Positions 4,555 through 35,525 of a DNA stretch of 35,525 nucleotides are shown here, in pieces. The DNA lies in contig JAGRBZ010000034.1 of the NCBI GenBank assembly GCA_020433805.1, positions 1-35,525 of the forward strand. The letters run 5' to 3'. Source of the DNA: Anaerolineae bacterium (lineage in GTDB: Bacteria > Chloroflexota > Anaerolineae > 4572-78 > J111). Made by a program: the position numbers and the translations under genes. Position 1 is the stretch's first letter, and each line of letters opens with the position of its first letter. Below the pieces are notes generated by a model. The model was not told the DNA's origin and searched no databases. It was given only the letters and a program-made list of their open reading frames with translations.

Positions 4555-5946
4555 TTACTTCACCGGCTGGCCGATACCATTGCTGCACGGTGCCCCTGGT
4601 TCCGGCGTATACGGCCCGTTTTGATATTTCTTGAGAAACAACGGTAACCGGGCGTCATTGGCATCATCCAGTTGAAGTTGAACTTGCCAGGCCGAGATTA
4701 CAATCGGTGCATCCAGTTCCGGCTGCGGAGAGAGCAGCACTAACGGCTCCAGACCAGCCTGCAATTCACCTCTCACAATATTTTGTAATATTTCTACCTG
4801 TTGATCAGGTAGATTGGGGCGATAAGCGACCCACACTGCCCCATGCTCCAGCGAATGCATCACTGGCTCTTCTGCCAGCGACTCATTGTAAATGCCACAA
4901 TTCTGCCATTCTTCGCTGTGTACGCCGCCGGGGGGCACAGCATGGTCATACTCAATATCGCCATCTTCGTGGTCGCGGCTTTGCTCCGGGAAAAAGATGA
5001 CGCCTTCAATTTCAGCATCTTTCGTCTCACCAACGGGTTCGTCAGTGGAAGGCGACGTGGTTGGCTCAGTTGTTGGCGGCGAAACCGGGGCAGACTCGAC
5101 ACCAAGTTGAGGTTGAGCCAACTGCTCTTCAAACACCTGCTGAAACACTTCAAATGGCTGCGCCCCAGAGATGAACACTCCATTGATGAGGAATGCTGGG
5201 GTACCGCGCACCCCAAGCGATTGCACCGATAGCGACTCTTGAGTGATCTGGTTACCATATTTGCCAGAGTCCAAACATTCCCGAAAGATGTTGGTATCCA
5301 GACCAAGCTCGCCGGCCAGTTCTGTTAGCCGGTCGGAGTTTAGACCGCTGCGGTTTGCAATCTGATCAGCAAAGACCTTATCGTGATAGACCCAAAATTG
5401 TCCTTGTTCAGCAGCACACTCACTGGCTTCAGCAGAAAGGTTCGACTCTGGTCCCAAAATGGCAAAATGTTTGTAGGCAAAGCGTACCTGGCCTGTGTTT
5501 ACATACTGCTCACGAATCCGAGACAACGTCTCGGCGGCGAAACGCCCGCAGTACGGTCATTTGAAGTCGCTGAACTCAACCATCGTGATGGGCGCACCGG
5601 CGCTGCCCTGGAAGTGGCGAGTATCGGACAACACAAAATCCATAATAGTCGGAGTCGGTTGACCAGCCTCAGATTGCACGGTGGCTGTGGTAGGCTGCGT
5701 CGAGCCATCATCAGCTTGGGTTACAGTTTCGTCAGCCGTAGCCGTTACCACAACTTGCACCAATTGCTCACCCTGCGACCGACCCACAGCATAGCCAATT
5801 GCCACGCCAAGGAATAAAGTAACGACAAAAATTAGTCCCACAAATAATAAGCTGAAACGAACATTATTTTTTATGATTGTACTATTTGCGCCTATATCTG
5901 ACTCGTTGGGAGTGAGCTGCTCGGTTGAATCTACCGGATTAGTCAT
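4555..5946 (-). CDS. Selenocysteine DsbA-like oxidoreductase fused to DUF3105
   Basis: Read through the in-frame TGA at 5559-5557, this is a single protein of 463 aa. Residues 1-85 are an Asn/Thr-rich cytoplasmic tail and one membrane segment (about 32-54, SLLFVGLIFVVTLFLGVAI). Residues about 105-280 are a DsbA-like thioredoxin fold: GSAGAPITMVEFSDFK, then U130-P-Y-C133-G-R-F, a YKHFAIL strand and the cis-Pro loop GTPAF (248-252). A Pro/Thr-rich linker follows. Residues about 313-460 are DUF3105, with PPGGVHSEEWQNCGIY and the conserved HSLEHGA (364-370). The TGA replaces the TGC of the nucleophilic Cys exactly, both halves stay in one frame, and a SECIS-like hairpin follows. The product should be membrane-anchored with its redox domain outside. 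DUF3105 has no established function. A TGC-to-TGA mutation is the alternative, but two other genes here show the same pattern. Confidence 0.85.
5518..5534 (-). promoter_or_regulatory. SECIS-like hairpin of the seleno-DsbA gene
   Basis: On the transcript, nucleotides +23 to +39 after the UGA form CCGAGAC-GUU-GUCUCGG, a perfect 7 bp stem with a 3 nt loop beginning with G. Known bacterial SECIS elements lie inside the coding region just after the UGA, with a short apical stem and a G in the first two loop positions. This hairpin meets those criteria while also coding for ordinary residues of the DsbA helix. Confidence 0.8.
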
Positions 5947-5975
5947 TATTAGCCTCTTGACGTTGAATTAATGGA

Positions 5976-6461
5976 TTAAATCGGTGGTTTAACCGGAATG
6001 GTCACCGTACCTTCATTGATGTTGCCGTCGTTCTCAATTGTTATGGTCACCTGCCAGTCGCCAATGGTATCAAAACTCAGTATCCCTTGGTAAGTGTTGC
6101 GAGCAATTTGTGTTGCTTCGGCTTCAATTGGCTCACCATTGCTAGGGGAGTTGTAACTATATGTTACTCGATCCAGATTGACAGTACTACCACCACCAGC
6201 TTGCATCAAAAGAATCATTTGCACTGGACCGGAAGTAGTCGCTGGAAATGGCTCAGTAGAAAAACGGACGCTGATAATGCCATATGGAGGTGCCAAAATA
6301 CCGACCTCACGGGCCGGTGTGTCCTGAAGTTGCTGCCAGAAGACCCAGCCAGCGCCCAGCAATAGTGCAGGAATAACTAGTAAGGTCATTAATGTGGCCG
6401 GGTTCATACCTTTGCGACCTAAGCCGTCATTTTTCACTATGGAAGGGGATTGTTTGGTCAC
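5976..6461 (-). CDS. FixH/YtkA-like membrane-anchored beta protein
   Basis: This is a 161-aa protein with one membrane segment (about residues 21-42) and an outside domain of roughly 115 residues rich in beta strands. The domain includes ISVRFSTEPFPATTSGPVQM, a Tyr/Asn turn, and a final IGDWQVTITIENDG strand. The pattern resembles the YtkA-like/FixH group, which accompanies copper delivery and cytochrome oxidase assembly. The start is GTG 6461 with AAGGAG suitably placed upstream. It is 29 nt ahead of the seleno-DsbA gene and reads the same way, so the two are probably cotranscribed. No metal-ligand cluster is obvious. The family assignment is from overall pattern only. Confidence 0.6.
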   Translation of the reverse strand: MTKQSPSIVKNDGLGRKGMNPATLMTLLVIPALLLGAGWVFWQQLQDTPAREVGILAPPYGIISVRFSTEPFPATTSGPVQMILLMQAGGGSTVNLDRVTYSYNSPSNGEPIEAEATQIARNTYQGILSFDTIGDWQVTITIENDGNINEGTVTIPVKPPI

Positions 6462-6508
6462 AAAGTAACTCCTTTACAATAGATTAACCAATTATCTATA
6501 GGATTTAT

Positions 6509-6624
6509 AGATTTACTGATCTCACAAGCCCAGCTTTTGTATCCGAAACGTAATACAGATCGCCCCGTTAACGCTGAATTACGTTAGGATAACCAAAAGT
6601 TGGGCCAGTGAGACCTGCAAATCT
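6509..6624. repeat. 116-bp imperfect foldback palindrome between genes
   Basis: The segment folds on itself almost end to end. The outer arms start AGATTT (6509) and end AAATCT. The next arms are CTCACAAGCCCAGCTTTTG (6521-6539) against CAAAAGTTGGGCCAGTGAG (6594-6612), matching at 16 of 19 positions. The inner arms ACGTAAT and ATTACGT are perfect. There is no T-run as in an intrinsic terminator. It sits 3 nt from the TlpA stop and upstream of the FixH/YtkA-like gene, so it could be a MITE-like insertion or a structured spacer affecting downstream expression. Confidence 0.7.
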
Positions 6625-6627
6625 GTA

Positions 6628-33984: not shown

Positions 33985-35160
33985 ATGAAACAATATTTTT
34001 GGTTGGTTAGCTTGGTTTTTCTCAGTTTTGGCCTGGCCGGATGCGATTCTGCTGGGGCGGACTCCAATCAAGTTGCAACGCCGGCGGCTTTGGCCGCCAC
34101 TACCACCCCCAACGCGATGCCCGGTATGGAGCACAATATGAACAGTATGGACAGCGACGCAGTGAGGCTCCCCCCGACCCTTGAGGCAATGCCTGGGATG
34201 GAACACGATATGGAGGCTACGATGAACCAATCCACTCCGTCGATGGTAGGCCACAACATGGCACCAATCAGCACCGAAGGCGTATCGCTGGCCAGCGACG
34301 CCCAGGGGGGGCAACTGCTCCCCTTTCGGGAAGAAGACGGAGTGAAAGTGTTTGAACTGACCACCCAGGCCGTTCTATGGCCCATTCTCCAGGGAGTGAC
34401 CGTCACCGCCTATACCTACAACGGCACCGTGCCCGGCCCGATGATCCGCGTCACTGAAGGCGACCGGGTGCGGGTCATCATTAAAAACGAACTACCGGAA
34501 CCCACCACCATCCATTGGCACGGTATTTTAGTACCCAACGCCATGGACGGCGTGCCGGGGGTGACTCAAGACCCCATCCAACCCGGCGACAGCTTTACGT
34601 ATGAGTTCACTGCCGCCCCCAGCGGCACCTTTATGTATCATTCTCACTTTGAAAGCGACAAGCAGGTGATGGTGGGCTTGTACGCGCCTTTTATCATCGA
34701 CTCCCCAACCGCTCCAACTGACCCGCCTGATGTGGATGTCACGCTCATGCTCTCAGAGTGGCGGCTGGTGGGCGGCCAAACTTTTGCCGCTATGCCAATG
34801 ACCGGCATGGACCCCAACTATTTCACCATCAATGGTAAGGCCTTCCCCGAAACCGAAACTATCACCGTCAAGCGGGGACAGCGGGTACGGGTGCGGCTGG
34901 CCGCGATCGGCCAAGCCATACATCCGATGCACCTGCACGGCCTGCCTTTCAAAGTGGTGGCTACTGATGGTTACCCAGTACCGGCGGCAGCCCAACTGAC
35001 CAAAGACACCCTCAACGTGGCGCCCGGCGAGCGGTACGATATTGAATTTATTGCCAGCGAGTCCGGCCAGTGGATGTTGCACTGCCACATTCTGCATCAC
35101 ACCACAAACGATGGCGAGGAGCCGGGCGGCCTGATGCTGATGGTCAACATTACCGAATAG
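33985..35160 (+). CDS. Multicopper oxidase (two cupredoxin domains) lipoprotein
   Basis: This 391-aa protein has a lipobox (LAGC, C20), a Met/His-rich leader (residues about 43-95) and two cupredoxin domains. The copper-binding motifs are TIHWHGI, MYHSHFES, HPMHLHG and the C-terminal LHCHILHH with the type-1 Cys. These are the four motifs of laccase-like enzymes, which couple Cu(I) or substrate oxidation to oxygen reduction. The leader twice repeats AMPGMEHxM (NAMPGMEHNM and EAMPGMEHDM), a Cu(I)-binding pattern. It has AAGGAG upstream. Its role is probably periplasmic Cu(I) oxidation or detoxification, as in CueO/CopA-type oxidases. Confidence 0.93.
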   Translation: MKQYFWLVSLVFLSFGLAGCDSAGADSNQVATPAALAATTTPNAMPGMEHNMNSMDSDAVRLPPTLEAMPGMEHDMEATMNQSTPSMVGHNMAPISTEGVSLASDAQGGQLLPFREEDGVKVFELTTQAVLWPILQGVTVTAYTYNGTVPGPMIRVTEGDRVRVIIKNELPEPTTIHWHGILVPNAMDGVPGVTQDPIQPGDSFTYEFTAAPSGTFMYHSHFESDKQVMVGLYAPFIIDSPTAPTDPPDVDVTLMLSEWRLVGGQTFAAMPMTGMDPNYFTINGKAFPETETITVKRGQRVRVRLAAIGQAIHPMHLHGLPFKVVATDGYPVPAAAQLTKDTLNVAPGERYDIEFIASESGQWMLHCHILHHTTNDGEEPGGLMLMVNITE

Positions 35161-35227
35161 GTATAATTGCCAACATCTCAAACAGTAACCCATCCGGTAG
35201 TACAAAACTAAATGATTGGATAAAAAT

Positions 35228-35259
35228 ACAGATGGCCGAGACGCTGTCCGGCCATCTGT
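35228..35259 (-). terminator. Terminator of the second Cu P-type ATPase gene
   Basis: ACAGATGGCCG and CGGCCATCTGT form a perfect 11 bp stem around a 10 nt loop. On the minus strand ATTTTTAT follows, so it ends the minus-strand ATPase transcript; on the plus strand the T-run is weak, though it may still help stop the oxidase transcript. Confidence 0.85.
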
Positions 35260-35282
35260 GCATTTGTTGCAGCGCGGCATGG

Positions 35283-35525
35283 CTACGCCACGGCAACCGG
35301 GGCAGGTGTCTGCGGCGCTACCACCGCCGTTTCAGCATGGGGCAGACCGGCCCATTTTAACGCCAGCGCATTAATAGTGACAGTGATGGTGCTGGCAGCC
35401 ATTGCCAGGGCGGCCCATTCTGGCCGCAGCAGAATCCCCAGGCTACTATACAGAACACCCGCCGCAATGGGGATAGCGATTATATTGTAAATGGCAGCCC
35501 AAAACAGGTTTTGTTTGATTTTGCC
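35283..35525 (-). CDS. C-terminus of a Cu/Ag P-type ATPase (CopB-like), cut by window edge
   Basis: The last 80 residues of a P1B ATPase are visible: IKQNLFWAAIYNIIAIPIAA (TM7 with YN), then GILLRPEWAALAMAASTITV and TINALALK (TM8), ending in a short Ala/Pro/Thr tail. The TM8 pattern with a single Ser-Thr (AST) and INA resembles the CopB (P1B-3) type more than the MxxSS of CopA at 15597. The rest lies outside the window, so the subtype is tentative. Confidence 0.8.
   Translation of the reverse strand, partial: GKIKQNLFWAAIYNIIAIPIAAGVLYSSLGILLRPEWAALAMAASTITVTINALALKWAGLPHAETAVVAPQTPAPVAVA

Follow-up and report, generated by a model that had tools for sequence, protein, structure and literature searches.

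Three TGA-containing thioredoxin-fold genes in a Chloroflexota contig very probably encode selenoproteins and have a partly supported copper context

We analysed a 35,525-nucleotide stretch of an Anaerolineae bacterium (assembly GCA_020433805.1, contig JAGRBZ010000034.1; hereafter the window), in which three different thioredoxin-fold genes each carry an in-frame TGA in place of the first Cys of a CxxC motif. Their products, here called DsbU, GrxU and TrxU, are very probably selenoproteins, because the genes for selenocysteine (Sec) decoding are encoded in the source assembly, relatives either keep the TGA or have Cys instead, and downstream of the TGA, at a fixed distance, lies a hairpin whose pairs show compensatory changes. 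A copper context of the three genes is partly supported by their neighbourhoods. Frames of the window were read with TGA as Sec and domains were assigned by Pfam. Under this reading three frames were open, with one TGA each:

4555 to 5946, minus strand: DsbU, a predicted DsbA-like selenoprotein with a C-terminal DUF3105 fusion (463 residues, N-terminal hydrophobic anchor, motif FKUPYC)
5557 to 5559, minus strand: TGA (Sec) codon of DsbU
5519 to 5533, minus strand: hairpin of DsbU resembling a selenocysteine insertion sequence (SECIS), loop GTT
18711 to 19004, plus strand: GrxU, a predicted glutaredoxin selenoprotein (97 residues, motif PPTUADC; alternative start at 18720)
18783 to 18785, plus strand: TGA (Sec) codon of GrxU
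18801 to 18817, plus strand: SECIS-like hairpin of GrxU, loop GGT
32095 to 32559, plus strand: TrxU, a predicted membrane-anchored thioredoxin selenoprotein (154 residues, motif NFUSFC)
32308 to 32310, plus strand: TGA (Sec) codon of TrxU
32331 to 32347, plus strand: SECIS-like hairpin of TrxU, loop GTG

The initial annotation of this DNA had proposed three thioredoxin-fold genes with TGA at the nucleophilic Cys, and the open frames through UPYC, UADC and USFC bear this out. Of the positions it gave, 32095 on the plus strand stands, 4555 is the 3' end of the minus-strand DsbU gene, and GrxU is taken to begin at 18711, with 18720 as an alternative start. The family assignments follow Pfam scores: GrxU is a glutaredoxin by PF00462 (52.7 bits, gathering cut-off 22.9) and TrxU a thioredoxin by PF00085 (38.9 bits, cut-off 23.5), while DsbU matches PF13462 (Thioredoxin_4; 104.7 bits, cut-off 23.2), PF01323 (DSBA; 76.8 bits, cut-off 25.6) and PF11303 (133.5 bits). 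The predicted model of TrxU has the thioredoxin fold, with a predicted local distance difference test score of 92.2 and a best Foldseek match to thioredoxin structures at E 1.4e-8. Hydrophobic N-terminal segments lie at residues 33-51 of DsbU and 22-40 of TrxU, the latter within a helix at 19-40 of the predicted model; the same scan found none in GrxU. All three proteins keep the second Cys of UxxC and a TP or PT loop. These features, together with the predicted fold of TrxU, are compatible with thiol-disulfide exchange.

To follow the TGA through relatives, we searched 199 genomes of the class, the source genome included, with each protein. The initial annotation had proposed looking for homologues with Cys or TGA at the same position, and these were found. 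For the GrxU lineage, TGA stood at the aligned site in all 18 best rows (the source and 17 others, with two each from genomes G150 and G043; 43-74% identity outside the window). The TrxU lineage gave 36 TGA and 7 Cys among the 43 rows that cover the site, out of 44 down to E 1e-14, the row of G143 being left out because the site is not covered; the DsbA-like family gave 21 TGA and 15 Cys among 36 rows of fetched loci. Two glutaredoxin rows, where an alignment gap put Pro at the site, and four DsbA rows from further domains with Ser or Tyr at the site were dropped before counting, and in the kept rows the alternative to TGA was Cys. Five more rows belong to a second glutaredoxin type (GUMFC or GULFC), all with TGA and four of them in tandem with GrxU; this second predicted selenoprotein glutaredoxin lies directly upstream of GrxU at loci L053, L054, L058 and L059.

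A pattern scan for a single motif, YTQPT-[Sec or Cys]-xDC, across a contig collection of 84,980 species returned 22 stretches. GrxU was encoded in 19 of them, with TGA in every one, and the titles of these records name Chloroflexi, Chloroflexota, Anaerolineales, Anaerolineae, Ardenticatenia, Ardenticatenaceae or Caldilineae. Caldilineae and Anaerolineae belong to Chloroflexota, and the placement of Ardenticatenia was checked in the taxonomy. Judging by these kin, the window too would come from Chloroflexota. The other three stretches (two with Cys codons and one with TGA, under proteobacterial and myxococcal titles) were rejected, as they do not encode glutaredoxins. A Cys relative does exist (protein P0123). 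Several further variants were seen. In two genomes GrxU carries a fused CoA_binding_2 domain (L063, L067 and L068; the domain was confirmed in L063). The source genome carries a second TrxU with TGA, about 60% identical, on contig C364 (L133:8801-9262), and a second DsbA-like gene with TGA on contig C926 (L134:8845-9705), which has a DUF3105 part in the same contig. Upstream of one DsbU gene, L165:1818-2009 may encode a further Sec protein (YTDGUAPW), without Cys at the usual place of the second Cys.

Hairpins were judged on the minimum-energy fold of the 51 bases from the TGA, by rules that follow published bacterial SECIS criteria: a loop of 3-14 bases with G among its first two, 16-37 bases after the TGA, and at least five pairs. 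Such a hairpin was present in 21 of 23 TGA-containing glutaredoxin genes, 23 of 29 thioredoxin genes (counting one doubtful member, in L165) and 18 of 21 DsbA-like genes, where synonymous recoding would give 8.8, 13.3 and 8.7. Overall, 62 of 73 genes passed against 30.8 expected. Among Cys relatives the hairpin was found in 1/9 glutaredoxins, 3/15 DsbA-like genes and 3/5 thioredoxins, the last a small group of three canonical thioredoxins plus two lineage members with Cys, from which little can be concluded. Each family shared a single hairpin register, with the loop starting at offset 25 (glutaredoxin), 29-30 (thioredoxin) or 32 (DsbA-like) from the TGA, and exchanges were paired on both sides of the hairpin (G-C to A-U and similar). 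Taking the families in the same order, standard pairs filled 139/154, 189/203 and 139/147 cells, and of 7 pairs 2, 3 and 5 had compensatory changes. When the doubly variable columns were shuffled 2000 times, the observed pairing was never reached in any family, which we read as support and not as a probability, because related sequences can exceed shuffles. The SECIS-like structure ascribed earlier to each gene is thus borne out, as a covarying hairpin at a fixed distance from the TGA.

The source assembly (9.78 Mb, 1248 contigs, 89.6% complete) encodes SelA (E 2.4e-141), a tRNA-Sec with anticodon TCA (65.2 bits) and SelD, which scored above its cut-off and has one TGA near its start. SelB is represented by its C-terminal winged-helix domains, in a frame running off a contig start; the full-length SelB model had no match above its cut-off in the assembly, the SelB piece sitting at that contig start. 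A search for selA, selB, selC and selD had been named as the check on the Sec reading, with absence of the machinery as the outcome that would speak against it; all four were found, selB as the C-terminal piece. Sec use appears general in the class, because SelA was above its cut-off in 171 of the 199 genomes. The marks of a bacterial selenoprotein are therefore present: an in-frame UGA aligned with the Cys of homologues with coding continuing beyond it, a hairpin shortly downstream of the UGA whose apical loop begins with G, and selA, selB, tRNA-Sec and selD in the genome. The Sec reading was backed by each test that could be run.

We find it hardly credible that the TGA codons instead arose by nonsense mutation or sequencing error, or encode Trp under a changed code. 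Some public gene calls do have Trp at the site (6/20 thioredoxin and 5/11 glutaredoxin proteins inspected). Against this, the TGA is kept across many families with Cys as the alternative, the hairpins covary, and the Sec machinery is encoded. A changed code also conflicts with the stop codons of 32 window genes (8 TGA, 14 TAA and 10 TAG; a 33rd gene, interrupted by the window end, is omitted): since eight of these genes terminate with TGA, it is an ordinary stop in this genome too.

Public annotation tends to miss these genes, which makes their Sec context in Chloroflexota hard to see. Among the 120 matches listed of 464, 20 public proteins of the TrxU lineage comprised 11 with Cys, 6 with Trp at the site and 3 stubs starting after it; among the 120 listed of 3949, 11 glutaredoxins comprised 3 with Cys, 5 with Trp and 3 stubs. 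Of these 31 relatives among the matches listed, UGA was therefore read as Trp in 11 and the start placed after it in 6. By length and domains, P0273, P0278, P0284 and P0291 resemble stubs of the DsbA-DUF3105 fusion, and by alignment P0273 and P0284 begin after the active site. NCBIfam had no model above its cut-off for GrxU, TrxU or DsbU. GrxU scored below the Uxx-star models (NF041212, 48.1 against 66 bits; NF041211, 39.8 against 100; NF041114, 22 against 72; NF047338, 21.4 against 97), TrxU below the thioredoxin equivalog TIGR01068 (44.8 against 96.8), and DsbU below the Rcas_1661 (seleno)lipoprotein model NF041057 (155.3 against 190), the nearest named selenoprotein model for its DsbA part. 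Judged by these scores, the three lineages lie outside the named NCBIfam models.

As kinds of protein the three are known, because excerpts from PMC13188914, PMC9312934 and PMC1794560 list Sec-containing thioredoxins, glutaredoxins and DsbA-like or DsbG-like proteins. Like the Sec-glutaredoxins there (PF00462, UxxC; PMC13188914, and Geobacter sulfurreducens and Alkaliphilus in PMC1794560), GrxU has the domain with Sec first and Cys second. It differs from them in forming a PTU[A/G/S]DC lineage, here seen only in Chloroflexota records and below the NCBIfam glutaredoxin and Uxx-star cut-offs, and in its link to CopA; some genomes also have it in tandem with the second Sec-glutaredoxin. TrxU shares the thioredoxin fold, UxxC and the thioredoxin-type PT loop with Sec-thioredoxins (PF00085; excerpts of PMC13188914 and PMC1794560), but has an N-terminal membrane anchor and an SNxUxxC motif and falls under no NCBIfam model. 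DsbU has the same DsbA-like domain as the Rcas_1661 family over 210 residues, but it is below the curated cut-off, is fused to DUF3105 and has no lipobox in its N-terminal hydrophobic segment, because that segment has no Cys. Metal handling by selenoproteins has precedents in the same excerpts of PMC13188914, which list Sao proteins, the SO_0444-family Cu/Zn efflux transporter and CopZ-like proteins. By name these are transporter parts or ligand proteins, whereas thiol oxidoreductases beside CopA are proposed here.

The neighbours that suggested a copper role to the initial annotation (CopA, SCO1, cupredoxin, multicopper oxidase and CcmF) are all present in the window by Pfam or TIGRFAM, and the three TlpA-type domains do keep Cys, as it had said:

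6628 to 7194, minus strand: TlpA/ResA-type thiol oxidoreductase with Cys (WCIPC)
7246 to 8244, minus strand: SurA-like/TlpA fusion with Cys (WCLPC)
8254 to 10275, minus strand: CcmF cytochrome c biogenesis protein (PF16327, PF01578)
15597 to 18263, plus strand: CopA-type copper-translocating P-type ATPase with YHS and two HMA stretches (TIGR01511, 634.4 bits, cut-off 397), upstream of the cupredoxin and GrxU
18332 to 18706, plus strand: cupredoxin with an N-terminal hydrophobic segment (PF13473, 81 bits), between CopA and GrxU and 4 bases before GrxU
24385 to 25245, plus strand: SCO1/SenC copper protein (PF02630)
26856 to 27506, plus strand: stand-alone DUF3105 protein with invariant His and Cys residues
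29850 to 30518: ArsR-rhodanese fusion
32556 to 33287, minus strand: TlpA-type protein with Cys (WCAPC), convergent with TrxU
33985 to 35160, plus strand: multicopper oxidase (PF07732, PF07731), starting 1.4 kb after TrxU

SCO1 also keeps its Cys, and the CopA gene has no in-frame TGA. The ABC system at 10395-13154 belongs by Pfam to the ZnuA/ABC-3 type and is no copper transporter. DUF3105, in the stand-alone protein and at the C-terminus of DsbU, has four invariant His, one nearby invariant Glu and two invariant Cys; a sequence search gave no relative of known structure, and the literature searched contained no paper on it. The left end of the window (1-3349) looks like mobile DNA, with a DDE transposase domain confirmed at 1205-2005, and 35283-35525 encodes the C-terminal end of a second copper-type ATPase that runs off the contig end, 56% identical to the window CopA over 55 residues.

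We compared GrxU loci with Cys-glutaredoxin loci of the same class. A CopA-type ATPase lay within 5 kb in 10/18 GrxU loci and 3/21 controls (Fisher p 0.015), on the strand of GrxU in nine of the ten. The controls were the best-scoring Cys rows, with one near a CopA (G005:C68) skipped; including it gave 4/22 (p 0.021), and counting GrxU by genome gave 9/16 (p 0.020). Within the same distance, cupredoxin (4/18 against 0/21, p 0.037) and cytochrome c (6/18 against 1/21, p 0.035) were also more frequent beside GrxU; CcmF stood at 3/18 against 0/21 (p 0.089), and DUF302 did not differ (2/18 against 0/21). Of the 19 GrxU genes of the pattern scan, 11 had CopA within 5 kb in the stretch available. 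The same-strand order CopA-cupredoxin-GrxU was seen again in G058 and in two contigs of G150, where the second Sec-glutaredoxin is interposed, and, with wider spacing, in L206 and L210. Compared with window positions 15597-19004, L053 and L058 have CopA and cupredoxin 78-82% identical between families and GrxU 58-74%; the operon may have moved between lineages.

Among 24 TrxU loci, nine have a canonical thioredoxin gene 3-38 bases upstream in the same orientation, and in L141 such a gene overlaps by one base. Within 2.5 kb there is a CsoR-family gene in nine, thioredoxin reductase in three and DsbB in one; domain assignments were confirmed for DsbB, two of the reductases and four of the CsoR-family genes. 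As far as gene content tells, this neighbourhood does not point to copper. By simple count, DsbU loci include CopA in L167 and L171, DUF2085 in L165 and L170, a multicopper oxidase in L170 and TlpA in L171.

We lean mildly towards the reading that the three Sec proteins would act as fast thiol reductants for cysteines in cytochrome c proteins and in proteins that handle copper. SelB with tRNA-Sec would decode the TGA at the hairpin, and Sec would be the attacking residue of UxxC. GrxU is predicted to be cytoplasmic, and TrxU and DsbU to be membrane-anchored and outward-facing. GrxU would then maintain the thiols of the adjacent CopA (CxxC and CPC) in a reduced or deglutathionylated state, allowing Cu(I) binding and export, while TrxU and DsbU may act correspondingly at the outer face, near TlpA/ResA and CcmF, on thiols of proteins like SCO1, cupredoxin and apocytochrome c. 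With Sec, exchange may be faster and the enzymes may recover more easily once oxidised by copper. Electron donors exist, since the genome encodes a glutathione synthetase domain, thioredoxin reductase and DsbD/CcdA-type proteins. From the CopA linkage we infer action of GrxU on CopA with a human precedent: according to excerpts of PMC5039574, Grx1 acts on the CxxC copper site of the chaperone Atox1, and the same is suggested for the P1B-ATPases ATP7A/B. Human Grx1 is Cys-based, whereas GrxU is predicted to be Sec-based and is encoded beside CopA. A fuller version, which we offer tentatively and would sooner doubt than accept, is a selenium-based copper-redox circuit of Chloroflexota, in which a Sec glutaredoxin that is almost never Cys would be the operon-encoded reductant of CopA, and Sec-thioredoxin and Sec-DsbA-DUF3105 its outward counterparts for cupro-protein and cytochrome c assembly.

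Several observations weigh against the copper role. The p-values for CopA are modest (0.015-0.021), the seven neighbour comparisons are uncorrected and the loci are related; CopA is missing within 5 kb from 8 of the 18 GrxU loci, with 12/18 loci and 6/21 controls incomplete on at least one side. TlpA-type genes within 5 kb did not differ between GrxU and Cys-glutaredoxin loci (3/18 against 3/21, and 3/18 against 2/21). Relatives of CopA, cupredoxin and SCO1 were absent within 2.5 kb from all 24 TrxU loci, and the window alone among TrxU loci had a multicopper oxidase. In the CsoR-family proteins of TrxU loci, the residue at -4 from the second Cys is Tyr in seven of nine, His in one and Gln in one; we take this position to be the site of the His ligand in copper-sensing CsoR. 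The TrxU paralogue on C364 is followed about 9 bases away, on the same strand, by a DsbB gene (8355-8792), and therefore points to oxidation, not reduction. Moreover, the three Sec genes occur together in the window contig only and in no other fetched contig, many of which are short.

It is accordingly possible, if on balance doubtful to us, that the three are ordinary Sec thiol oxidoreductases of a selenoprotein-using genome, close to copper genes by chance or through a general thiol-redox neighbourhood. The three kinds are known and Sec use is common in the class, as described above, the neighbours of TrxU are general thiol genes, Cys-glutaredoxin loci likewise have CsoR-family genes (4/21) and thioredoxin reductase (5/21) within 5 kb, and no second fetched contig has the trio. 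What this leaves unexplained is that GrxU lies by CopA and cupredoxin more often than Cys-glutaredoxins do, with the same one-strand order in several families. The two-Cys, His-less CsoR-family repressors, if CstR-type persulfide sensors, would suggest for TrxU and its partners a role in persulfide stress or another sulfur stress instead of copper, and the ArsR-rhodanese gene of the window would suit this; we find it improbable, as the Tyr-versus-His reading is tentative, the CsoR-family count of nine was taken on TrxU loci, and GrxU loci are tied to CopA instead. Very improbable is a GrxU that acts as a Cu(I) carrier for CopA with Sec as metal ligand and no reductase activity. Excerpts of PMC13188914 do allow that Sec may be a metal ligand in SaoB, SaoC and UXX-star proteins, and the CopA linkage would fit; GrxU nevertheless retains two features of redox glutaredoxins, the second Cys and the TP motif, and falls below the Uxx-star cut-offs.

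Returning to the thiol-reductant reading, the coupling to copper, first drawn from position, gains support for the glutaredoxin and not for TrxU, and copper genes adjoin DsbU in few loci. The hydrophobic segments agree with a thiol system on both sides of the membrane. As to an undescribed arrangement, each of the three is a known selenoprotein kind; the arrangement itself was not found in titles and abstract openings on Chloroflexota selenoproteins with copper, CopA, Rcas_1661 or DUF3105, a search in which subscription journals were mostly uncovered, and the full cluster was seen in this contig only. Most predicted bacterial selenoproteins are described in excerpts of PMC13188914 as functionally largely uncharacterised. 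A GrxU lineage that retains Sec and is often found beside a copper ATPase and a cupredoxin would provide a concrete, testable candidate substrate for one of them.

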